Positions 10,612 through 33,720 of a stretch of 34,066 nt of DNA are shown here, in pieces. Source of the stretch: Bacteroidetes bacterium GWF2_35_48 (GTDB lineage: Bacteria; Bacteroidota; Bacteroidia; Bacteroidales; GWF2-35-48); assembly GCA_001769125.1 (NCBI GenBank), contig MEOG01000027.1, positions 1-34,066 on the forward strand. The letters run 5' to 3'. Each line of letters begins with the position of its first letter. Within the stretch, counting starts at the first letter, position 1. The position numbers were made by a program, and so were the translations under genes. Under the pieces are notes generated by a model. The model did no database searches and was not told the origin of the DNA. It saw only the letters and a program-made list of their open reading frames with translations.

Positions 10612-10851
10612 TTAATGATACATATTTAAAGATGAATTCCAAACCACTTTTTCGTGAACAAAAGTTTTGCAAACAACACTCCTTGTAATACCTGGATTAG
10701 TTAACTTAACCATTTCCAGTACTTCATCCAAAAGCAACCATGTAGATTTTCTTATTGATGAAATTAGTATTTTCTCAAAATCATTCAATGCATAATGTAT
10801 ACTTTTATCGGTCATTATTTTCTCAATCGTTGAAACCCTTTGAGGTCTCAA
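10612..10851 (-). pseudogene. IS481-like transposase N-terminal remnant
   Basis: This 79-codon reading frame, most likely starting at Met13 (10815, MTDKSIHYALNDFEK), carries a helix-turn-helix-like stretch: an FEKILISSIRKSTWLLLDEVL segment and then NPGITRSVVCKTF. The pattern of an S/A-x-R-K/R-x-T core, LLLDE/LPLDD and PxxTRS resembles the N-terminal DNA-binding part of IS481-family transposases, recognised from memory rather than by a search. The full family protein is about 300 residues or more and has an rve DDE integrase core, which is absent. The frame ends at 10612 and the following sequence is AT-rich non-coding. Its start lies inside a dispersed repeat whose second copy (31325-31621) keeps the same MTDKSI start before diverging. 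It could instead be an unrelated small protein. Confidence 0.45.
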
Positions 10852-10915
10852 CGTGCCTATCCAATGGAGACCTCAAGGGTTTTCCAAAAGCGCAAATAAT
10901 GACCGGGCTTGGTAT
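10805..10915 (-). repeat. Palindromic dispersed repeat, copy 1 (uninterrupted)
   Basis: The minus strand reads ATACCAAGCCCGG, CTTTTGGAAAACCCTTGAG, then an imperfect palindrome (CCTTGAGGTCTC about 16 nt from GAGACCTCAAAGG) and then CGATTGAGAAAATAATGACC. The same order is found at 31325-31621. This copy has no insertion at the position where the other copy carries a 177-bp element, so it shows the empty site. It overlaps the start of the transposase-like remnant. Confidence 0.8.
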
Positions 10916-10954
10916 ATTTAAATTATTTGGCGGCTTGACTTAACAACATATTAG

Positions 10955-21599: not shown

Positions 21600-24500
21600 C
21601 TACCTCAACACCGTAACATCTCCCGCTGCTTCATATTCTTTTCCGTCTGCGCAAATCCAGCTTGCTTTCCACACATAAACATCTTGCTTACATATATCAT
21701 TTTTATAATATCCGTCCCATCCCATCATAATATCATCACTTACAAAAAGCAATTCGCCCCACCGGTTAAATATTTCTAATTTATAAGAACTCACACTTCT
21801 GAAAAGCGGATGAAACACATCAAACGAAAGATCGGGTAAGGTATACGCGCCGCCATTTCCTCCCCCGGTATTTGGTGTAAAGGCATTCGGGAAAATTACA
21901 TTGCACTCTGATCGTGCGCGTACGCCATTTGATAACGTAAACGTGTCCGTGCAAGCCTCTGCTGAATATGCAATCAATGTTATGTCGAACATCCCTGCGT
22001 TTATATATGAGTGAGAAGGATTTTCCAAAGTGGATGTATCTCCATCGCCGAAATGCCATAAGTAATTTGCTCCATTGTCTGAAAGGTTATAGCATTGAAT
22101 CTGTTCATCGGGTATAGTTACAATTGCCGGATTGATATGAAAAAAAGCATTTGGGGGCTGATGCACAACAATTGTCTGAAACGAATTACTCTGTCCGCTA
22201 AAACCTGTTGCCGTTAATTCAACTTCATACGTGCCGGGTGTATAAAATGTGTGTTCAGGATTTTCCTGAGTTGAAACACTGCCGTCTCCAAACTCCCAGT
22301 AAAATGAGTTGCTATAGAGCGATTGATTCGTGAAATTTACAACTAAAGGAGGACAACCATGCAGGGCTGAACTTGTAAATTGCGAAACAGGAGTAACGGG
22401 AATAATTTTTATTGTCTGCGATATTGAATCAATGCAATGTTCTCCCGACGCAACAAGTGTAATCGTGTATTCACCCCATGTATTGTAAATATGGACACCC
22501 GGAGCTGGTCCCTGCGCTGTTTGCCCGTCTCCGAAAGACCATGAATAATACCATGTACCTTGTGTTGTATTTACAATGCTTACTGTTGATGAAGGATACG
22601 TTTGCTCTGTGGGTGTAGCAAAAAAGCTTGCATCAGGACTGGGATAAACAGTAATTTTTTTTGTAATCGTATCGCTGCATCCGTAAGTTGATTGAGCAAT
22701 AAGTGTTACATCATAATTTACATCCTGATACGTTGTATTTGTAAAAGTATGGTTTGGATGATACACTAAAGAATTTGTGCCGTCTCCGAAATTCCATTGC
22801 GCGCTTGTTGCTCCTTCAGATGTATTGATAATCCCTGCTTCATAGGGGCTACATTCTGCATTGTTTATTGTAAAATTTGCAACAAGATTCGGAAATACAA
22901 AAACGGTTTTTGAAAATTGCGCAGTGCATCCTTCTACCGTTACAGCATTCAGAACGAGCTGGTAGGCTTGCATCTGGCTTGAGTTGTTTACGTAAAGATG
23001 CGAAATATTGGCTGAATCTGAAACGAGCGAGTCTCCATCTCCAAAGTTCCATATATAACTGTCTCCGCCTGAAGAGAGATTCTGGATTGCTAGAGTAAAG
23101 GGAGTACAAGATTCTGTTGTATCTGTTGTAAACAGGGCAACAGGCGCTGGAGATACATTTACGTTAATTTTTGATGAATCAATGCAGTTGTAAAGAGAGT
23201 AGGAGAGGAGGCTAACTGAATACAGTATGTCTTCATTACTTTCATTTATGAAAACATGTGTGGGGTTTTCTGCCTGAGATATAATTCCATCGCCAAAATT
23301 CCACAAATAATTAGCAGCGCCTTCTGATTGATTTGTAAAATTAACAGCAAGCGGACTGCATCCCTGAAGTGGCTCTGATGCAAAAGCAGAAGTTATTTGC
23401 GGATATACTGTAATTTGCCTGATGATGGTATCTGTACATCCGGTGCTGCTTCCCGCAATAAGAGTTATATAATAATTAAGCGGTGTATTTCCACTGTTTG
23501 AGAATGTGTGATAAACAACCGAATCGTTGCTTGTCATTGTATCTCCATCTCCAAAATTCCAAAAGCAGAATTCGGCATTGCCCGAAATATTTAATATTTG
23601 TGCGTTGTAAGGTGCGCAGCCCGTATAATTTTCAATGATGAAATTTGCTGTAACCTGCGGATGAACTATTATCGTATTTCTGGCAGTATCATTACAACCG
23701 TAAACAGAATTGACGATAAGCACCGCTTCGACTGAATCATTCATTGAAGAAAAATTGTAATACAGATGTTCCGGATTTTGTTGAATGGAAGAGCCACCGT
23801 CTCCAAACTCCCAAACTAAATTTTGAGAGCCTACAGATGTATTTTGAAAATTTACATTCAGAGGAGAACATCCATTTTCAGGAGAATTCGTAAATGCCGC
23901 GTGAACACCCGGGAAAATAATTACATCGCGTGATAATGATTCCATACAACCATGGCTGTTCCATACATCAAGATTAATGGTATTCGTGTCTGGCACAGAT
24001 GTATTATTTGTATAAGAATAGCTGAAATTTTGAACCGGCGTATCACTGAATGTACCATCGCCCATCGTCCAGTAATACTGCGTTGCGCCTTCCGATGAAT
24101 TTATAATTTCTGCAACAAAGGGACTGCATCCTGAATTATATTCAAAAGTAAAGTTTGCAAAAAGTTTTCCATAAACAGTAATGTTTTGTGAAAATGTATC
24201 GTTGCAATTATATTGAGAAGTAGCAATCAGAGTGGTATTGAAGACCGTATCTTGTGTTGAAAGGTTTGTGAAAAGATGTTCGGGATTTGGTAATTCTGAT
24301 GAACCGCCATCTCCATAATTCCAAGTATAATTTTCTGCATTGGATGAAAAATTTGTAAACTGAACCGATAGCGGATTGCAGCCATTAATGGGGCTTGCAG
24401 TGAAATATGCCGTAACAGGTGGAAATACTGTAATGTCTTTTTGAATTGTGTCGGCGCATCCGTGAGAATTTGTAACAGCAAGTTCAATTGTGCGAATTAA

Positions 24501-27500
24501 CGGTGTGCTGCCGTTATTATTATAAGTATAATTAATTACGGTATTACCCGACTGTGAGGTCATGCCATCGCCAAAAGCCCAGTCATAAGTGATAGCACCA
24601 ATGGAGTTATTTGTTATTACAGCATCGAAAGGAGCGCATCCTGAATAATTTTCTAAAGCAAAGTTTGCAAGCAGATATGAGTAAACCGTAATTTCAGATG
24701 TAATTGTATCAGTACAATTATAGGGCGAAATCGCAATAAGAGAAACATGATACGTCGTGTCGTTATTACTAAAATTAACAAAAGAATGGATGCCTGATGG
24801 AAACGCGGAAGAGCTGCCATCGCCGTATATCCAGTCGTAAGCAGTTGCGCCTGTTGAGTTATTTGTAAATGTTACCTCAAGCGGATTGCAGCCTATGGTA
24901 ATATCGGGTGTAAATGATGCAACAACAGAGGGATTGACGGTAATTGTTTTCCTGATAGTATCCGTGCAATTATTGCTGTTTGTAACAATCAGTTCCATAA
25001 CATAATCAACAGGGTTGACGCTTGTGTTAATATAGGAATGACTGAAAGATAAAGCAGCCGTATCAGAAATTGTTCCGTCTCCAAAATTCCATTGATATGA
25101 ATTTGCTCCGATAGAATTATTTATAAGTTGAAGATTAAATGGTGTGCAACCTGAGGCAGATTGAATCGCAAAGTCCGCTTTCAGATATGGATAAACAGTT
25201 ATGGTTGTAATGGCGGTATCCGTACAATTGAATTGAGAAATAGCAATGAGTTGCGCATTGAAAATTGTATCATTTAATGAATAATTCTGATATTCATGTA
25301 TTGGATTTTCATTAGCAGAATTGCCACTGTCTCCGAAATTCCATTGATAATTACTCGCTCCTGTTGATGTGTTTGTAAATTCTACGCTTAGCGGATTGCA
25401 TCCCTGAATAGGTTGCGCGGTAAAATCAGCATTGATTCCCGGGTAAATTGTTATTGTTCTCTGCATGGTATCTGTGCAGGCATTAGCTCCCTGTACGGCA
25501 AGTGTGATGTTGTAATTCAGAGGATTGTTCGTATTATTTTCATACTGATAAGTTAAATTCGCGTTGTTATCTTCGTAAGAAATTCCATCGCCAAAATTCC
25601 ATGAATTGCTTGTTGCCCCTATCGAATTATTAGTAATAACAGCATTAAACGGAGTACAACCCTGTGAATATTCAATACTGAAATCTGCTTTTACTAATCC
25701 CGAAACTGTGATTGGAATTTCTAAGGTATCATAACATAAAAACTGCGATATAGCAACAAGCTGAACATAATAAATTGTATCTGTCAGGTTGTAATTTAAA
25801 AAGGTATGATCAGGAGATTCAATTGAGGAAGAGCTGCCATCAGCAAAGTTCCAGAAATAATTTACAGCACCCAGACTTGTGTTTAAAAAAGAAACTTCAA
25901 GCGGACTGCAGCCATTATCAATACTTGCATTTGCCTGTGCGATAACCTGTGGATTTATTGTTATTGGAATAGAGAGCGTATCTGTGCAATTGTGATTATT
26001 GTATGCTATTAATTCAATAATATTTACTGCCGGATTTGCATTCAAATTTGTGTATATATGAGTAAAAGAAGTAGCAGAAGTATCCGAAGAAGTTCCATCT
26101 CCATAATTCCAAAGATAGCTGACAGCACCGATTGAAGCATTTGTTATTTCTGCATTATAGGGAGAACAACCTGTAACATTTTCCATGCTGAAATTTGCAT
26201 TGAGATAAGAAAAAACAGTAACCGGCATGCTGGCCGTATCGCGGCAATTGTATTGAGAAATGGCTATCAGTAAGGTATTGAAGGTTGTGTCATTTGGAGA
26301 AAGATTTTCATAAATATGAAACGTATCTTCAAAAGAAGATGTTCCACCTTCGCCATATTGCCAGTCGTAAATTGTTGCGCTTGTTGAAAGATTTGTGAAT
26401 GCAACATTAAGCGGATTGCAGCCGATAATGGGCGTTGCGGTGAAATCTGCATTTACGGGAGGAAAGACTGTTATCTGACGAATCAATGTATCTGTGCAGT
26501 TGTAGCTGTTTTTTACAACCAATCGTATGTTGAAAATTTCAGGAATACCGGATGTGTTTGTGAAGATGTGCTCTAATGTTGCATCGGGTAAATCAGAAGT
26601 AAAACCGTCTCCGAAATCCCATTCATAAACACTTGCTCCTATAGATGCGTTGATAATTTCTGCATGAAAAGGAGAACAACCGGAAACGTATTCAGCAGTG
26701 AAATCAGCGCGCAGATAGGGAGCAACAAGAACAGGCAGAGAGCTGGTGTCTGAACATCCGTATTGCGAGAAAGCAAGCAGAGAAGTTGTGTATGTCGTGT
26801 CGTTATTTCCCCAGTTATAAAAAGTATGATCTGGTTGATCTTGCGATGAACTTCCGCCGTCTCCGTAATTCCATTCATAATAATCTGCTGCCACGGAGTT
26901 GTTCGTATAAGCTACGGTTAATGGATGGCATCCCGTTACCGGACTTGCAGAAAATACAGCCTGCACATCGGGATAAACTGTTATTTGCCTTGTAACAGTA
27001 TCTTTACAATCGTAAATATTATTGCCGATGAGGTCAAGCGTATATATTACAGGATTTGTCGTGTAGTTATTGTATGTATAAGAAAAATTATTGCCGGAAA
27101 AATCGGATGAATCTCCATTCCCAAAATACCAGTTGTAATCTGTTACTCCTGTTGATGTATTCAGAATATTTGCAGTAAAAGGAGTACACCCCGCGGTATT
27201 TTCAATAGAAAAGCTGACATTCATGGGAGGCGCGACAAAAACAGTAATGCTTGCAGAATCTGTCATGTTGCATGCTCCGCTTACAGTAACCGTGTATTTT
27301 GTCGTGGTAAGAGGTGTAACAATCGGAGTTGCGATATTCGGATTATCCATATTTATTGTAGGCGACCAGATATATTGCGCTCCACCTGTAGCAACAAGCT
27401 GGGCAGATTCTCCATAGCATCTCTTAATTACATCAGAGCCTGTTCCTGCAACAATAGCATTAATCTGCATCACATTAAAATCTGAGAAATAGCCGTACCT

Positions 27501-28805
27501 GCACCCGACACTGCTGCTTCCATTAATTATTCCTATATGAAACATATCTTTTGTGTTTGAAAGAAGGCTTGCGGCACCGGTTGGAACGGTTGCTCCTGCT
27601 GTGAAATTAAATACTGCTGCTTTCCAATCAGTCGTTCCTGGTACATTTTGAAACGCAGTTGCCGGAATAATTGTATTTGGACCATCCCCATTCAGTATAA
27701 ATCCGTCTTCAGCTCCTGTGCGCACCATGATATTCATGTAAAAATCCTGATCAATAGATCGGGTAAATCCAACCTGAGTAGAGCCTGTGCATTGGTCTAT
27801 TGGAGGGAGGATGGCACTTCCAAGTTCACATTGAAAACCTGCAACATGATACATATAAACAGGATGTGTTGCTCTTACGTGCGTTGCCTGAGTAATAACA
27901 TAAGAATATGTTTGCGCTTCATTAATTGTGGTTGTAGAAATGCCATCTATAAAAATTTCCGTATTGTCTTCCGTGGCAAGTACAAAAAATCGTTCGTCTG
28001 TAAAAATCTGACCTTTCATGATAATATATTCAAGTCCGCAAATAGCAACGGGAACAGTCTGGTCACCTATGAGGTCGCGGCATCCGTCTTTTGCAACAGA
28101 ATCGTCTGAAATAGTAATTGCAATAGGTTTGCCTGATACAACTTTTGATCCTTGCAGATGATTTACCGCAGCCTGACTGCTAGCTTTTGCAGAATAGGTT
28201 TGTCCTTTATTTAATGTAATAGTGAATGTTGAGCCTGCAGCATGTCCAATTATTGCATTGCTTACAGTTATCGTAACATTCGTGTTATCTTCTGTTGCAA
28301 CAATTTCAAAACTACTGTAAGGTTGAGGAGTATAATTTCCGTTATCCCAGGTGTTCTGTGATGAAATATAAAATATCAGACCTAAGGCATTTTTCCCTTT
28401 CAATGCATATATTTCCGGATTGTACCATTGATTTACTTCGTAATATACTGTTATAAGATTTGTAGAATGTATTTGAATTCCGAAATTATTTATGTTGTCA
28501 GCTGGCACATTTTCAAGCATATTGAGTCTCGCTGTTATGTCGTAACTAACGGTTGCGTTTGCAGGTACATTTAAAATAATTGGAATGAAAGCAGGATTCG
28601 CAGGTTGTGAAATGGTAACAGTTGAAGCCAAATCCATAGTTGAAATTCTGAAAAGAACCGGTTGACCTCCGGGGCAGGTAGCACCCGCGCAATGTCCAGT
28701 ACTGTTATAGGGAGCAACAAACCAAAAAAGCGTGTCGGTTTGAGCGCATAGTTTTGTCCCGAGAAGCAGAGAAAGCAAAATGCCATATATTAACTTGCTA
28801 CGCAT
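21600..28805 (-). CDS. Giant SprB-like PKD adhesin with IgGFc-binding-like head and CHU_C (type B) T9SS sorting domain
   Basis: The 2401-residue protein has a signal peptide (1-21, ending LCAQ). Residues about 25-445 resemble the IgGFc-binding N-terminal domain (DTLFWFVAPYN, VATEDNTNVTI, PVAICGLEYIIMKG, SFEIVATEDNT, HVAGFQCELGSAILPPIDQCTGS). An Ig-like link with CYGESAQLVATGG follows (about 446-525). Then come 21 PKD domains of about 84 residues (about 527-2300), each with a W-x-F/Y-GDG core. The first 16 alternate between two subtypes (GCxPFxAxIxNxSIGA and GCNPLxVxFTNxS). The last 101 residues are a CHU_C gliding-associated domain: FPNAFTPN, LEIFNRWGELLF, GWDGYYKND, YVWKASW, GDVTVLR. It should be exported by T9SS with the nearby PorP/SprF protein and stay at the surface as a long stalk with a binding head. 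The ligand is unknown. Confidence 0.93.
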   Translation of the reverse strand: MRSKLIYGILLSLLLGTKLCAQTDTLFWFVAPYNSTGHCAGATCPGGQPVLFRISTMDLASTVTISQPANPAFIPIILNVPANATVSYDITARLNMLENVPADNINNFGIQIHSTNLITVYYEVNQWYNPEIYALKGKNALGLIFYISSQNTWDNGNYTPQPYSSFEIVATEDNTNVTITVSNAIIGHAAGSTFTITLNKGQTYSAKASSQAAVNHLQGSKVVSGKPIAITISDDSVAKDGCRDLIGDQTVPVAICGLEYIIMKGQIFTDERFFVLATEDNTEIFIDGISTTTINEAQTYSYVITQATHVRATHPVYMYHVAGFQCELGSAILPPIDQCTGSTQVGFTRSIDQDFYMNIMVRTGAEDGFILNGDGPNTIIPATAFQNVPGTTDWKAAVFNFTAGATVPTGAASLLSNTKDMFHIGIINGSSSVGCRYGYFSDFNVMQINAIVAGTGSDVIKRCYGESAQLVATGGAQYIWSPTINMDNPNIATPIVTPLTTTKYTVTVSGACNMTDSASITVFVAPPMNVSFSIENTAGCTPFTANILNTSTGVTDYNWYFGNGDSSDFSGNNFSYTYNNYTTNPVIYTLDLIGNNIYDCKDTVTRQITVYPDVQAVFSASPVTGCHPLTVAYTNNSVAADYYEWNYGDGGSSSQDQPDHTFYNWGNNDTTYTTSLLAFSQYGCSDTSSLPVLVAPYLRADFTAEYVSGCSPFHAEIINASIGASVYEWDFGDGFTSDLPDATLEHIFTNTSGIPEIFNIRLVVKNSYNCTDTLIRQITVFPPVNADFTATPIIGCNPLNVAFTNLSTSATIYDWQYGEGGTSSFEDTFHIYENLSPNDTTFNTLLIAISQYNCRDTASMPVTVFSYLNANFSMENVTGCSPYNAEITNASIGAVSYLWNYGDGTSSDTSATSFTHIYTNLNANPAVNIIELIAYNNHNCTDTLSIPITINPQVIAQANASIDNGCSPLEVSFLNTSLGAVNYFWNFADGSSSSIESPDHTFLNYNLTDTIYYVQLVAISQFLCYDTLEIPITVSGLVKADFSIEYSQGCTPFNAVITNNSIGATSNSWNFGDGISYEDNNANLTYQYENNTNNPLNYNITLAVQGANACTDTMQRTITIYPGINADFTAQPIQGCNPLSVEFTNTSTGASNYQWNFGDSGNSANENPIHEYQNYSLNDTIFNAQLIAISQFNCTDTAITTITVYPYLKADFAIQSASGCTPFNLQLINNSIGANSYQWNFGDGTISDTAALSFSHSYINTSVNPVDYVMELIVTNSNNCTDTIRKTITVNPSVVASFTPDITIGCNPLEVTFTNNSTGATAYDWIYGDGSSSAFPSGIHSFVNFSNNDTTYHVSLIAISPYNCTDTITSEITVYSYLLANFALENYSGCAPFDAVITNNSIGAITYDWAFGDGMTSQSGNTVINYTYNNNGSTPLIRTIELAVTNSHGCADTIQKDITVFPPVTAYFTASPINGCNPLSVQFTNFSSNAENYTWNYGDGGSSELPNPEHLFTNLSTQDTVFNTTLIATSQYNCNDTFSQNITVYGKLFANFTFEYNSGCSPFVAEIINSSEGATQYYWTMGDGTFSDTPVQNFSYSYTNNTSVPDTNTINLDVWNSHGCMESLSRDVIIFPGVHAAFTNSPENGCSPLNVNFQNTSVGSQNLVWEFGDGGSSIQQNPEHLYYNFSSMNDSVEAVLIVNSVYGCNDTARNTIIVHPQVTANFIIENYTGCAPYNAQILNISGNAEFCFWNFGDGDTMTSNDSVVYHTFSNSGNTPLNYYITLIAGSSTGCTDTIIRQITVYPQITSAFASEPLQGCSPLAVNFTNQSEGAANYLWNFGDGIISQAENPTHVFINESNEDILYSVSLLSYSLYNCIDSSKINVNVSPAPVALFTTDTTESCTPFTLAIQNLSSGGDSYIWNFGDGDSLVSDSANISHLYVNNSSQMQAYQLVLNAVTVEGCTAQFSKTVFVFPNLVANFTINNAECSPYEAGIINTSEGATSAQWNFGDGTNSLVYHPNHTFTNTTYQDVNYDVTLIAQSTYGCSDTITKKITVYPSPDASFFATPTEQTYPSSTVSIVNTTQGTWYYSWSFGDGQTAQGPAPGVHIYNTWGEYTITLVASGEHCIDSISQTIKIIPVTPVSQFTSSALHGCPPLVVNFTNQSLYSNSFYWEFGDGSVSTQENPEHTFYTPGTYEVELTATGFSGQSNSFQTIVVHQPPNAFFHINPAIVTIPDEQIQCYNLSDNGANYLWHFGDGDTSTLENPSHSYINAGMFDITLIAYSAEACTDTFTLSNGVRARSECNVIFPNAFTPNTGGGNGGAYTLPDLSFDVFHPLFRSVSSYKLEIFNRWGELLFVSDDIMMGWDGYYKNDICKQDVYVWKASWICADGKEYEAAGDVTVLR

Positions 28806-28890: not shown

Positions 28891-28946
28891 ATCGCTCTGT
28901 ATTGTAGAATCGCTCTATGGAGCGATTCTACAGTACATGGAGCGAT
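28891..28946. repeat. Inverted repeat between the giant adhesin and the divergent type A sorted gene
   Basis: The arms atcgctctgtattgtagaat... (28891-28916) and ...attctacagtacatggagcgat (28919-28946) are near-perfect complements with a 2-nt gap in one arm and almost no loop. The core tgtagaatcgctc is shared with the element at 21538-21599. Both ends of the adhesin gene therefore carry a member of this family. Confidence 0.8.
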
Positions 28947-29012
28947 TGTTCAATCCTTTTGCCTTTTAATTTTTTTTATTATTTTTACATTGTAATTATA
29001 AACTTGACCTAT

Positions 29013-31157
29013 ATGAAAAATTTTATCTCTGCTCTAATTTTGTTATTGCCTTTTTATTGTTTTTCGCAGCAACAGGTATTACCAATAATAAACCTTCAGT
29101 CTAATGAATATATTCAATCGCAGTATCCATCTTTTGATGCAATGAAGATTGAGTCCGGTAATCCCGCGAAAGTAATGGGAGACACATTGCTTTTTGAAAC
29201 ATTTTCTGACACTTCACGCTGGATTTCAGCAAACCTCGGAATGGGAGACAAAAAATGGAAAATCGGACCTTATACAAATTCCGATGCTGTTCAACTCACT
29301 AATTATACACAGGTTTTTACTGCGTGGAATCCTGCGCCACAAACCGGAGATTCTATTGCATATTTTAATGCGTATCAATATATCGCTACTCCACCGAATC
29401 CATTTCCAACAACTATCAATGTTACGTTAACCTATAACGGATCGTTTGATTTTTCATCAAATCCTGCGATTGGCGTTTCGTGGTTTCAGAATTACAGAGC
29501 CTATAACGGAGATAAAATTTATTTTGAATACAGCCTAAACGGTGGAATAACCTGGGTTGCAGTCAGACCTTGGGATAACCAGACTGTTACCGAATTGTAT
29601 CCATGGGTGGAAGCAAATATGTATGCTCCTGACTATTATTATGAAAATATTTCATCTCTTGTAGGCGGGCAGACAAATGTAAAATTCAGATTTCGTTGGG
29701 AATGTATATGGACATCCTCTTCTCCTCAACTTTATGGAGCAGGCTATGGCTGGATGATTGATGATTTTATTATTTATGGGTTAAAAGAAAACGACCTGCT
29801 GGCAGAACAGGTGTTGCCTGCCTTTTATGGAGTTGGTTATTATTCGAGTATTCCTGAAAATCAGCGAATGAAAATTTCTTCTTTCAGTGAACGGATTTTA
29901 AATAATGGCAGCATAACGCAGAACAATATGACATTGACTGCCAAAGTCGAGACAGCAAGCGACACTACTGCCGAATTTTTGTTTAACGGAACACATCAGC
30001 TTGCTTCCATAGCACCCGGAATGCGCGATACTGTTACAACCGATACGCTTTCTTTCGATGTCCCTTCAGGTTTTCAGAGGCATATTATTACATGTACTGT
30101 AAAACAAAACCAAGACGATTTTAATATTTCTGACAATAAAGATACAATCGGTTTTTGTGTGAGCGATTCTGTTTATGCACGAGACAGAGGAAGAACAGGA
30201 AAGTTTGGACCCACCAGAGTTACAGGCTCACAAGATGGAGATTTTATGGCTGTTGCCTATTATATTTCAAATCTTGATACAGTACATTCCCTATCGGTGT
30301 ATATTGCTTCGGGGACTAAACCAGGAAGCCAGATTCAGGGTATTATTTATACCTATGAGGCGGGTACTGGTTTTATTGAAGGGATTAGTACGAACGTACG
30401 AACACTTGCCACGGCTGATATAAACAAATGGATCGTGCTTTCGTTTAAACCAAATTTTGATGGTATATTTGAAATACTTGAGCCCGGGAAAGTATATTAC
30501 GCTGGAATAAAATTTTTCTGGCAAACGGTAGTGCCGACTACTCAAGGTCTTTATTTAGGTGTTGATCGCGATGTCCCGATGACAGAAAATCATTGGAGTC
30601 AAACAAACGTATATGTAAAATCTTCCGGTATTCCCAGCTATATCAAAGAAATGGCACTGATACGCCTGAATCTCTCATCTTTTTCGTGCAATATGATATT
30701 AAGCACTGTTGTTACAGATCCTACCGGAGCAAATAATGACGGTTCTATCGCGCTGAATCCTCAAAACGGAATTTCTCCCTTTACCTATAACTGGTCTAAT
30801 GGCGCAACAAGCCAGAATATTTCAGGTTTGATTCCCGGCACTTATTCTGTAACTGTTACAGATGGCGCTTCCTGCACACAAACCGGCTCATGGGTTGTTC
30901 ATACAAGCGGTATTGATGATATGGAGCAAGAATTGAATCTGAATATTTATCCGAATCCGGCAAAAAACAGTATTTCTATTTCTACGGATAGAGCATTTAC
31001 TATGACAATACTTGATGTTTTAGGAAAGCCCGTAATGTATAATGAAAATTGTTTCTCCGGTAAATTTTCTTTAGCTATGCTTTCTGATGGATGTTACTTT
31101 ATTAGAATTACAAGTGCAAAGAAAACAACCTTGAGAAAATTACAGATTTGCAGATAA
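29013..31157 (+). CDS. T9SS type A sorted surface protein with SprB repeat
   Basis: I start at ATG 29013 (714 residues), because MKNFISALILLLPFYCFSQ is a clear signal peptide. The longer in-frame ATG at 28917 would begin inside the inverted repeat. Residues about 40-260 form a jelly-roll-like region with FETFSDTSRWISAN, SFDFSSNPAIGVSWFQNY, YFEYSLNGGITWVAVRPWD and YGWMIDDFIIYGL. Two beta-rich regions follow. Residues about 555-625 are a SprB repeat (VVTDPTGANNDGSIAL, FTYNWSNGATSQNISGL, GTYSVTVTDGASC). The last 80 or so residues are a type A sorting domain: LNIYPNPAKNSISI, ILDVLGKPV, LSDGCYFIRI. The gene is divergent from the giant adhesin. The function is unknown, and an extracellular binding role is likely. 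Confidence 0.9.
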   Translation: MKNFISALILLLPFYCFSQQQVLPIINLQSNEYIQSQYPSFDAMKIESGNPAKVMGDTLLFETFSDTSRWISANLGMGDKKWKIGPYTNSDAVQLTNYTQVFTAWNPAPQTGDSIAYFNAYQYIATPPNPFPTTINVTLTYNGSFDFSSNPAIGVSWFQNYRAYNGDKIYFEYSLNGGITWVAVRPWDNQTVTELYPWVEANMYAPDYYYENISSLVGGQTNVKFRFRWECIWTSSSPQLYGAGYGWMIDDFIIYGLKENDLLAEQVLPAFYGVGYYSSIPENQRMKISSFSERILNNGSITQNNMTLTAKVETASDTTAEFLFNGTHQLASIAPGMRDTVTTDTLSFDVPSGFQRHIITCTVKQNQDDFNISDNKDTIGFCVSDSVYARDRGRTGKFGPTRVTGSQDGDFMAVAYYISNLDTVHSLSVYIASGTKPGSQIQGIIYTYEAGTGFIEGISTNVRTLATADINKWIVLSFKPNFDGIFEILEPGKVYYAGIKFFWQTVVPTTQGLYLGVDRDVPMTENHWSQTNVYVKSSGIPSYIKEMALIRLNLSSFSCNMILSTVVTDPTGANNDGSIALNPQNGISPFTYNWSNGATSQNISGLIPGTYSVTVTDGASCTQTGSWVVHTSGIDDMEQELNLNIYPNPAKNSISISTDRAFTMTILDVLGKPVMYNENCFSGKFSLAMLSDGCYFIRITSAKKTTLRKLQICR

Positions 31158-31215
31158 AAAACGGTCGCTGAGCTTGCGATGCATTGAGGTTATCGAAATG
31201 TCGAAGCACCGTTTT
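31157..31215. repeat. Short inverted-repeat element with a ctgagcttg...tcgaagc core
   Basis: aaaaacggt (31157-31165) pairs with accgtttt (31208-31215). The inside carries gctgagcttg and tgtcgaagc, the same kind of common dispersed motif found in the loop at 21538-21599. It begins right at the stop codon of the plus-strand gene and may fold at its transcript end. Confidence 0.55.
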
Positions 31216-31324
31216 CTCTCTGTAGTTTCAGAACTCCTGACCCGATAATTGATTATCAATTATTTCTGTAAGTTAGCCTGTAAACGAAGAAACTGTTTTG
31301 AATTTACTATAACAAATATTATTT

Positions 31325-31621
31325 ATACCAAACCCGGTTATATATTGCCCTTTTGGAAAACCCTTGAGGTCTCCATTGGGTAGGCACGCTGAGACCTCAA
31401 GGGTGGGGTGACCTAAATCAATGCAAAATAAATTATTTGCCCCCGTAGGGTGGCAAATAGTGATAAAAAATAAAACACTCAAAAGCAAGCACCCTGTTGG
31501 GGTGCAATAGAAATTTTTTATGCAATTGTTTATTTAAATGGAACGAAAAAATATTCAAAATTATGCGATTTAGGTCACCCCACCTCAAGGGTTTTACCGA
31601 TTGAGAAAATATGACAGATAA
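31325..31621 (+). repeat. Palindromic dispersed repeat, copy 2 (interrupted by a MITE-like insertion)
   Basis: 31325-31404 plus 31593-31621 match copy 1 (10805-10915, opposite strand): ataccaaacccgg, cttttggaaaacccttgag, the palindrome cccttgaggtctc/gagacctcaaggg, then cgattgagaaaat and atgac. Bases 31405-31592 are extra and represent the insertion plus one target-duplication copy. Confidence 0.85.
31405..31581. mobile_element. 177-bp MITE-like insertion with 15-bp terminal inverted repeats and 11-bp target duplication
   Basis: The ends are perfect inverted repeats: ggggtgacctaaatc (31405-31419) and gatttaggtcacccc (31567-31581). The flanks carry the same 11 bases acctcaagggt on both sides (31394-31404 and 31582-31592). 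The inside is non-coding and holds two hairpins (atttgcc...ggcaaat and gcaccc...gggtgc). The empty site is preserved in the other copy of the host repeat at 10805-10915. The element is non-autonomous. The parent transposase family cannot be named from the ends alone. Confidence 0.85.
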
Positions 31622-31630
31622 GAGTATAAA

Positions 31631-31670
31631 TAGTGCCTGCAAGAAAACTCATGTTTTCTTGCAGGCACTA
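31631..31670. other. Perfect 18-bp hairpin with 4-nt loop
   Basis: tagtgcctgcaagaaaac (31631-31648), loop tcat, then gttttcttgcaggcacta (31653-31670). The stem has no mismatches. There is no T run on the plus strand. It stands 3 bp from the intrinsic terminator at 31674 and adjoins the end of the dispersed repeat. It may protect a transcript end or be part of another small repeat element. Confidence 0.75.
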
Positions 31671-31673
31671 AAT

Positions 31674-31705
31674 AAAAAAAACCGGAAAATTTCTCCGGTT
31701 TTTTT
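31674..31705 (-). terminator. Bidirectional intrinsic terminator
   Basis: An AACCGGA/TCCGGTT stem has a 7-nt loop and an A run on one side with a T run on the other. It lies about 70 bp past the stop of the BNR-like gene (minus strand), which it should terminate. The T run on the plus strand would also stop any transcript coming from 31157. Confidence 0.85.
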
Positions 31706-31776
31706 AAATTTATAATTGAGTAAATCAAGGTTGGTTTTTAAAATCAGCCTACCCTGATTTATCAAATTCAGTACTA

Positions 31777-33720
31777 TTACTCAACAAGAACTTTTGTGAT
31801 TGATTTTTCTATACCTGTAATAACAGTGCAGAAATACATTCCTTTGCTCCATGAAGAAGTGTTAACGTTAATTTTATGATTGCCTACAGAAAGATTGTTG
31901 GTGTTTTCATAAACAATCTGGCCTAACATATTTGTAAATTTAACTTTAACAGTTTCATTCGCTTTTAAAGTAACATTAATAGTTGCATTGCCTATAACAG
32001 GGTTCGGATAAACTTTAACAGTTGAATTTTCAGCAACATTTGAATTTACATTATTAGGAATAATAATAGGGGGACCCTCAATTGTAAATTCAGCATCAGT
32101 AAATTCAATACCTTTTAGTAAATAATGTTTCTGAGTTCCGTCTGTATTCAAATTACTTTCATAAATGTCTACATAAGTAGCAGGAATCTGATAACTAGTA
32201 CCGTCAAATAATGCTTTTGAAGAAGTTTTCAGGTAATAGATATTTGCATTACCAGTTTCAAAAGAAGTAACAGGAGTAACTAAGTTTGCATCAATATCAA
32301 ATCCCCAAGCTTTTGGTTCCGGCATTGTATTATCGGAAACACCCCAGTTTAATGTATCAGTATCTGTCCATGATACAAAAACTTTATTACCATCAGGGCT
32401 TTTTGAAATATTGATCCAATGTCCCCATCCGGCACCACCACTTGATCCTGTAAATGGAGAAGCATCATCGGCAACCATGTTTGCGCGGAGTGTATCAATA
32501 AATGCAGCATTCCATGCACCGTTCTGTTGGAAAACATCAAATAATAATTTTGGATGAGCAGCATAGGAGTAACCTAATGAATCTGGATGATCGGAATACA
32601 AACCTTCAATAACGCAGGCAATGTGTAAGTTTCCATCGGCATCAACAACTGCAGGGTAGCCACTGGGTTCTACAGTAGAACCTGCGGGGAAGTTAGGGCG
32701 GAAAACCCATTGATCAATAGGAAGATCTAAAGATGCTCTTGTTGGCCAAATTTGGTTTGTTATAGCAGAAATAGTGTCCCATTCTTGGAAAATAGGTTCT
32801 TTAACCCAGATTGCGCCACCATCATTGGTTTCCCAAACTACAGGTACACCGGAATTGTAAGGACCATTTGCAGAGTCGTTACCCATGCTATAGAAGTAGC
32901 CATGAAGACCATCGTTGCTCATTGCAATACCATCATTAAATGTCCAGGGGTAATTTCCATTAGAGAAAGCTCTAACTCTCCAAAGGTTATGAACATAAGT
33001 AGGTGTCCAGTTTACCTGATTGGTATTGAAAACGCCATTCATAATTTTATAGTACTGAGTTCCAGGAGGTACATCACTTGCCATAGAAACAGTAGAAACG
33101 GCATTATAATAACCATTGGCTCCATCCATGCCACTCATGAAAACAACAGAGTCATTAGGATTTGCAACTTCCAACATAGCAGGAGTTCCTCCTTTTTTAT
33201 TAGAAGCAAAATAATTTGATACCCATCCTGAACCGTTTGTCTGAGGACCAGAAATAACATAATACTGTTCGTCAGGATTTGTGTTTCCTGAGGGGTTGTG
33301 GATTCTTCCGTTAGGATATCTGGCGGCTGTTGCAGGTTGGAATGATAAACTGTCCCATGTAGCACCCCAGTTTGAAGTAACTTTCGAGTAGAGGTATCCT
33401 CCGTTGCCACCCCAAGTACCACCTTGACGGTGTACAAAAAGAATAGAATTTGTTGCAGGGCAAGCGTCTAACCAATGGGGACCTTCTGCTATAATCGTAA
33501 ATACGTTTGCAGACGTTCCAATTGCAACAGAACTCATAGCCTTGTTTGAATTAGACAACACGCGAGGTTTAAACGGAACATTAAAAGATACATTTGCGTC
33601 AATTTTTGACTGCAAAGACTTAGCTGTTTGATCTGACAATTTCTTGTAAGCATTTTTGTTCTGGGCTTGAGCACCAACTATGATGCCGAGAGCCATAATC
33701 ATTAGTAATACTTTTCTCAT
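31777..33720 (-). CDS. T9SS type A sorted protein with BNR/sialidase-like propeller
   Basis: The 647-residue protein has a signal peptide (1-20, ending AQAQ). The body (about 60-540) looks like a beta-propeller with Asp-box-like motifs, for example SNWGATWDSLSF, TNDGGAIWVKE and SPDGNKVFVSW, and many aromatic strands. Sialidase catalytic residues cannot be identified with confidence, so enzyme activity is not claimed. The last 75 or so residues are a type A sorting domain: VKVYPNPVIGNATINV, TNMLGQIVY, WSKGMYFCTV, KVLVE. It should be exported by T9SS and end at the surface or in the medium. It is a single-gene unit with its own candidate promoter and terminator. Confidence 0.9.
   Translation of the reverse strand: MRKVLLMIMALGIIVGAQAQNKNAYKKLSDQTAKSLQSKIDANVSFNVPFKPRVLSNSNKAMSSVAIGTSANVFTIIAEGPHWLDACPATNSILFVHRQGGTWGGNGGYLYSKVTSNWGATWDSLSFQPATAARYPNGRIHNPSGNTNPDEQYYVISGPQTNGSGWVSNYFASNKKGGTPAMLEVANPNDSVVFMSGMDGANGYYNAVSTVSMASDVPPGTQYYKIMNGVFNTNQVNWTPTYVHNLWRVRAFSNGNYPWTFNDGIAMSNDGLHGYFYSMGNDSANGPYNSGVPVVWETNDGGAIWVKEPIFQEWDTISAITNQIWPTRASLDLPIDQWVFRPNFPAGSTVEPSGYPAVVDADGNLHIACVIEGLYSDHPDSLGYSYAAHPKLLFDVFQQNGAWNAAFIDTLRANMVADDASPFTGSSGGAGWGHWINISKSPDGNKVFVSWTDTDTLNWGVSDNTMPEPKAWGFDIDANLVTPVTSFETGNANIYYLKTSSKALFDGTSYQIPATYVDIYESNLNTDGTQKHYLLKGIEFTDAEFTIEGPPIIIPNNVNSNVAENSTVKVYPNPVIGNATINVTLKANETVKVKFTNMLGQIVYENTNNLSVGNHKINVNTSSWSKGMYFCTVITGIEKSITKVLVE

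Follow-up and report, generated by a model that had tools for sequence, protein, structure and literature searches.

Mobile DNA that lands in REP repeats has been described earlier in other bacteria: nine copies of ISRm22, a member of the IS4 family, were found inserted into REP palindromes, and Tn5/IS50 prefers 9-bp targets, inserts at palindromic sites, and often has GC pairs at the two ends of its direct repeats (PMC1525189, cited here and below for the excerpts used). Among Bacteroidota, the nearest described MITEs that we found are those of Porphyromonas gingivalis, BrickBuilt and MITE239/464/700, which are present in around 10-20 copies and share terminal inverted repeats with full-length IS elements (PMC4596501, likewise cited for the excerpts used). 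In the present work, we analyzed a 34,066-nucleotide stretch of DNA (the window) from Bacteroidetes bacterium GWF2_35_48 and found a 179-bp MITE-like element that interrupts a dispersed palindromic repeat and is flanked by 9-bp target duplications. It is most probably a non-autonomous transposon derivative (MITE) for which a larger element with similar termini supplied the transposase in trans (our estimate of the probability is about 0.9).

The element resembles the P. gingivalis MITEs in being short, devoid of a transposase, and resident in Bacteroidota, but it differs from them in the following respects: (i) the ends of the P. gingivalis MITEs match those of the IS5 family (GAGACC..., ACGTCA...), whereas the present ends read TGGGGTGAC...; (ii) BrickBuilt is flanked by irregular duplications (CT, GAAA, a run of A), whereas 9 bp are duplicated in all copies of the present element that were compared; and (iii) the P. 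gingivalis MITEs have full-length IS partners, whereas none was recovered for the present element (PMC4596501). In the source genome, where all five copies are inserted into dispersed extragenic palindromes, it recalls ISRm22, ISPpu9, ISPpu10, ISPa11, ISPsy8, and IS1397, but, unlike these REP-inserting IS elements, it is a MITE, it entered two unrelated palindrome families, and its relative is not confined to palindromes (PMC1525189). The likeness to Tn5/IS50 is one of target profile, i.e. a near-palindromic 9-bp target with G or C at both ends (PMC1525189). Searches of the literature by end sequences and by MITE plus REP retrieved no description of the present MITE family; the end sequences occur in two papers, neither of which has a title that points to transposons. 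REPINs and RAYT-mobilized REP sequences are likewise small palindromic repeats of extragenic space; to our knowledge, RAYT elements lack long inverted ends and target duplications, both of which are present in the 179-bp element.

Results

Throughout the text, G000 denotes the source genome of the window, G170 the MAG Bacteroidetes bacterium GWA2_31_9, and G001 the genus mate, while C27 stands for the window copy of the element. The features of the window to which the analysis refers are given below.

31404..31582, plus strand: MITE-like element of 179 bp, TGGGGTGACC...GGTCACCCCA (sequence; five same-length copies in the genome)
31404..31419, plus strand: left terminal inverted repeat, 16 bp, TGGGGTGACCTAAATC (sequence)
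31567..31582, minus strand: right terminal inverted repeat, 16 bp, perfect against the left one in the window copy (sequence)
31395..31403, plus strand: left copy of the target duplication, 9 bp, CCTCAAGGG (sequence and flank comparison among copies)
31583..31591, plus strand: right copy of the target duplication, 9 bp, CCTCAAGGG (sequence and flank comparison among copies)
31541..31546, minus strand: subterminal TCGTTC motif, about 20 nt inward of the right inverted repeat (pattern searches)
31432..31461, plus strand: internal hairpin 1, core ATTTGCCCCCGTAGGGTGGCAAAT (fold)
31489..31505, plus strand: internal hairpin 2, GCACCCTGTTGGGGTGC (fold)
31324..31403, minus strand: host palindromic repeat family 1, interrupted, larger part, stem CCCTTGAGG...CCTCAAGGG (repeat search)
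31583..31628, minus strand: host palindromic repeat family 1, interrupted, remaining part (repeat search)
about 10798..10916, plus strand: uninterrupted paralogous copy of host repeat family 1, the right arm of which holds one CCTCAAGGG (repeat search)

The outermost sequence of the element reads TGGGGTGACCTAAATC...GATTTAGGTCACCCCA. While the terminal inverted repeats of the window copy are perfect, those of the other four G000 copies show 1-2 mismatches between the ends. A search for the inverted end with up to 2 mismatches returned 2 matches against 0.05 expected, and at least 2 were obtained in 1 of 100 shuffles. No open frame of transposase size is present within the 179 bp; the longest frames touching the element comprise 71 and 69 amino acids, and both extend beyond it. 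The predicted fold of the 179 nt is strong (-60.8 kcal/mol, z -6.7). The two internal hairpins, searched with up to 3 mismatches, occurred in an 834-kb sample in three element copies only, and this confinement rules them out as dispersed repeats on their own. The element is located between convergent reading frames (28917-31157, plus strand, and 31777-33720, minus strand). Downstream of it, positions 31637-31710 contain two strong-looking tandem hairpins, the second of which is followed by a T run, a terminator-like arrangement between the convergent frames. Elsewhere in the window, positions 21600-28805 encode a repetitive protein of 2401 residues (by eye, with PKD-like repeats), several related secreted-looking proteins, and repeated DNA units.

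The first-pass annotation had proposed that a MITE-like element entered a dispersed palindromic repeat and duplicated its target there, and four more copies in the genome together with relatives in another genome bear this out, but not the length of the duplication. A 177-bp element with perfect 15-bp ends between two copies of acctcaagggt had been described. Inverted ends are indeed found at 31405-31419 and 31567-31581, but their true length is 16 bp; similarly, acctcaagggt is present on both sides, but its outer T and A are the element's own, which leaves a duplication of 9 bp and an element of 179 bp. Since the target CCTCAAGGG is followed by T and mostly preceded by A, the terminal T and A of the element can be mistaken for target; in the C58 copy, the base preceding the target is T. 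We compared the flanks of ten complete copies, i.e. five of 179 bp in G000 and five of 255 bp in G170. With the element set at TGGGG...CCCCA and lengths of 5-12 tried, the flanks agreed at 9 only, and did so in 10/10 copies, whereas the first-pass limits, GGGG...CCCC, call for an 11-bp repeat, which is present in 3/10 copies (C27, C122:54531, and C121) and absent from 7/10. The copy at C122:45307-45485 reads ...AACCTCACAGG-T...A-CCTCACAGG-ATTG, so the 9-mer is duplicated and the outer bases are not. The idea that an 11-bp duplication narrows the transposase family was thus founded on a wrong length. Four of the five G000 insertions have CCTCAAGGG as their target, which at C121 is read as the reverse complement, CCCTTGAGG.

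An empty site had also been reported 20 kb away from the element. An uninterrupted host repeat does exist there and shows the insertion limits, but it is a paralogous copy of the repeat and not the same locus prior to insertion. It is 87% alike to the window host copy across the shared 85-bp stretch, and it still marks the limits because the CCTCAAGGG in its right arm is intact.

Five copies of the element, all of 179 bp, were found in G000 (C27, C58, C121, C122:45307, and C122:54531), so the first half of the refutation test set out in the first-pass annotation, no other copies anywhere, is contradicted by four further ones. Those at C58, C121, and C122:45307 are identical, and C122:54531 differs from them by 1 base. 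The window copy shows 9 differences in 179 positions from the three identical copies and 10 from C122:54531; it is thus an older or separate insertion, and the near-identity of the other four indicates that they moved recently. The inserts at C58 and C122:54531 are near-identical although the host repeats enclosing them differ from each other (81% and 93%, respectively, to the same query); host and insert thus did not travel together, and the copies were taken as separate insertions. Both flanking frames are co-directional at C58, C122:54531, and C122:45307, and C121 is near a contig end. No copy of the element was found in G001, the one other genome of the genus that was searched.

Host family 1 is about 117 bp long and gave 36 matches in the genome, corresponding to 31 loci, some of them fragments, after merging of the pieces of occupied copies (3) and of reverse self-matches (2); the search scored 40 of 46 candidates, and the alignment of unoccupied copies used 25 loci. 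The element is held by four of the 31 loci, in three of them in one arm and at C121 in the opposite arm. The family has imperfect inverted ends, TATACTCTTATCGGTCAT / TATACCAAGCCCGGTCAT (window 10798-10919 and 31324-31628), and may itself be a MITE, perhaps derived from an IS630/mariner-like element that targets TA. The fifth copy (C122:45307) lies in an unrelated palindrome, family 2 (GCAAACCTGTGAGG...CCTCACAGGATTGC), which has 8 matches in the 834-kb sample, that site included.

L182:15660-15716, L183:13619-13674, L190:19484-19537, L191:2551-2605: family 2 palindrome loci in the source genome (repeat matches)

On either strand of the 834-kb sample, CCTCAAGGG occurs 11 times in family 1 (element-flanking duplicates counted) and once elsewhere. 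The more general word CCYNNNRGG was found 213 times outside the element after 17 words at or in it had been set aside, namely 167 times in predicted frames, 24 times in other intergenic DNA, 13 times in family 2, and 9 times in family 1, with frames called crudely and 90% of the sample scored as coding. The palindromes' share of these sites is 22/213 overall and 22/46 in intergenic DNA; insertion of 5/5 copies into palindromes is striking against the former value and mildly so against the latter.

The target 9-mers are near-palindromic, and the two outermost positions at either end are almost always occupied by G or C. Among 15 nine-mers, comprising 7 two-sided (CCTCAAGGG counted once, CCTCACAGG once per genome) and 8 one-sided sites, 30 of 60 pairs were complementary versus 14.4 (SD 3.1; 0/20,000 shuffles). 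Addition of two G059 half-sites gave 34 of 68 for 17 nine-mers (0/20,000 shuffles), omission of the G000 repeat sites and of GGCTAAAGC gave 27 of 56 (1/20,000 shuffles), and the six distinct two-sided sites alone gave 10 of 24 (270/20,000 shuffles).

A search of the order with the end pattern (up to 1 mismatch) produced matches in 24 of 393 genomes, three of which were accepted: G000, G170, and G059. G170 contains five complete, identical 255-bp elements that have the same ends as the G000 element and 9-bp duplications in 5/5 cases, as well as three further elements of the 255-bp type, with the same ends, that are truncated where a contig stops or the assembly has a gap. A TCGTWC motif lies about 20 nt inside the right ends in G000; the 255-bp elements of G170 have it at either end and G059 has it at one, in both genomes as an equally placed TCGTTC. 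The motif is absent from the left ends of the five G000 copies, from one G059 end, and from the left kind of the G170 edge ends (see below). When 395 genomes of the phylum were scanned for the pattern of end plus motif, a single one, G000 itself, had it. An order sample of 392 genomes centered on G059 contained it in two (G059 and G170, with G000 not among the genomes listed), and, of three genomes in the family of G170, G170 alone showed it. A collection of 84,980 species yielded 8 stretches, 7 from GWA2_31_9 and 1 from the G059 MAG, in a scan that fixed C at position 9, was blind to the AAC variant, and may omit the window's own genome. The 23 single 1-mismatch hits of the order search outside G000, G170, and G059 (21 genomes) lie in stop-free frames of at least 188 amino acids and were rejected as chance coding matches. 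In one of these genomes, G346, another end, with 3 mismatches, is located at a distance of 1.4 kb, but the hit itself falls within a 550-amino-acid frame.

Several insertions in G170 are associated with genes. At G170:C105 (L222 2394-2648), an endonuclease-like frame with a DNA adenine methylase-like gene as its neighbor (translations read by eye) is split by the 255-bp element, which possibly inactivates a restriction system. At G170:C246 (L225 2532-2539), the element is inserted at the very end of a ruvB-like gene (name by eye), the stop codon of which is made of the element's first bases, TGGGGTGA, and a cut-off copy is found inside an IS110-type gene (name by eye). The G059 contig carries two ends pointing apart and, at its edge, a 59-amino-acid frame that is transposase-like by eye and gave no Pfam match, no plasmid match, and no viral relative.

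Similar ends, TGGGGTGAACTAAATM, with 1-2 mismatches to TGGGGTGACSTAAATC, are found at six contig edges of G170, where they read TGGGGTGAACTAAATC or ...ATA, each at most 100 bases from the edge and pointing off it. Three of them share one inner sequence and three another that carries TCGTTC, a pattern that a multi-copy element would leave with its left and right ends if it broke the assembly. They are probably the two ends of one longer, autonomous element lost in assembly, and we infer that its unseen interior encodes the transposase. The edge flanks of C118 and C248 both carry GGCTAAAGC beside the end, which may represent one insertion or a common GGGCTAAAGCCC palindrome hit twice. At G170:C248 (L180 95-200), a palindromic GGCTAAAGCCC...GGGGCTTTAGCCC adjoins the lost element, and here, too, the landing site is a palindrome.

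These probable ends at contig edges are the sole traces of a full-length transposon. When G170 was searched with the right end (94 bases), the three edge copies were obtained and otherwise only weak matches, and no contig with the whole element was seen. The second half of the refutation test in the first-pass annotation, no transposon with these ends, stands so far, as none of full length was found in the source genome, among 393 genomes from the order and 395 from the phylum, or, by the end-plus-motif pattern, in the 84,980-species collection; no transposase gene for these ends was recovered and no autonomous element was read end to end. In the source genome, ends with up to 3 mismatches gave 35 matches versus 36 for a backward control. 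Ten of these belong to the five element copies, and the surroundings of 8 of the other 25 (six contigs) revealed neither a partner nor a common inner sequence. Five stretches of viral contigs matched, all in stop-free frames of 82 to 815 amino acids. On one of these contigs (L085), another end with 3 mismatches is located at a distance of 4.5 kb; this one, too, falls into an open frame (217 amino acids) and was taken as chance. The looser end-plus-motif pattern added 4 viral stretches in frames of 74 to 175 amino acids and no partner, and no G170-type end was present in the viral contigs. Against plasmid records, the element gave 4 short matches at E 0.5 and the G170-type right end none.

Discussion

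The reading of the element as a mobile MITE is based on five same-length copies, matching 16-bp ends, exact 9-bp duplications, insertions in two repeat families, and the near-identity of four copies. If the composite of host palindrome and insert were instead the mobile or recombining unit, the copies would be duplicates of one nested structure, and C27, C58, and C122:54531 do share place, orientation, host family 1, and 9-mer. However, the inserts of C58 and C122:54531 differ at 1 of 179 positions whereas their host flanks differ at many, and the location of C121 in the opposite arm and of C122:45307 in another repeat family largely refutes this explanation, which we regard as highly improbable. 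Still less credible, to the point of being nearly negligible, is a chance structure or a functional RNA or terminator that is no mobile element at all: the strong fold and the site between two convergent frames would suit it, but the fold derives largely from the inverted repeat and the inner hairpins, nothing in Rfam reached the gathering score for positions 31150-31800, a terminator would not be expected to show exact duplications and five dispersed copies, and the other copies, where both sides are readable, do not lie between convergent frames.

Given that the element is a mobile MITE, its transposase might recognize the palindrome as such, as a hairpin or cruciform, and not the sequence of the 9-mer. 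This is suggested by the location of all five G000 copies in the arms of palindromes that belong to two unrelated families, by the share of CCYNNNRGG sites that these repeats hold, and by the strong folds of the empty sites at four of the five G000 copies (z -3.6 to -6.5), but the empty site of C58 (z -0.8) folds little better than shuffles, a strong hairpin is seen at one of the five sites of complete G170 copies (C173, z -4.2; the others +0.4 to -0.8), and G170 insertions also occur in the split endonuclease-like frame, at the end of the ruvB-like gene, and in the IS110-type gene. Since the G170 insertions are not confined to palindromes, the 9-mer rule is preferred over hairpin recognition, which we consider unlikely; a preference for the repeats beyond the 9-mer is weakly supported, given five copies and purging from genes. 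As for the enzyme itself, an IS4-family transposase of the IS50/Tn5 kind is possible, if on the doubtful side, as the likeness comes from a target profile that is not exclusive to IS4 and no protein was recovered; duplications of 8-9 bp are also made by IS1, IS256, IS903-type IS5, and ISLre2. The profile in question (9 bp, G/C-ended, near-palindromic) resembles that published for Tn5/IS50 and for IS elements that target REP repeats (PMC1525189).

For a mobile MITE that follows the 9-mer rule, the course of events might be as follows. A transposase, of the DDE type to judge from the anatomy of the element, would bind the 16-bp end together with, on one side or both, the TCGTWC motif that lies about 20 nt inward, cut the target with a 9-bp stagger where the outer bases are G or C and the sequence is roughly symmetrical and CCY NNN RGG-like, and join the element there, after which gap repair would copy the 9 bp. 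The palindromic repeats would supply many intergenic 9-mers of this kind, and the element would collect in them. The autonomous partner would probably resemble the element whose ends, TGGGGTGAACTAAATM, break the G170 contigs.

The element thus belongs to a recently active MITE family of an ordinary kind in a nested arrangement, and it extends the MITEs of Bacteroidota by a family whose 9-bp target signature is clean. It also calls for caution, because the length of a duplication that is read from one copy can mislead when the target happens to continue the end of the element. In the source genome, dispersed palindromic repeats are revealed, from sequence alone, as landing sites for other mobile DNA. 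The transposase for these ends is the part where novelty could lie: one may speculate, against the odds, that it represents an undescribed IS family of uncultured Bacteroidota, which seeks G/C-ended symmetrical 9-mers and so lives in the stems of extragenic palindromes. If this were true, the repeats would be a safe harbor for a parasite of parasites, with one MITE residing in what appears to be another.
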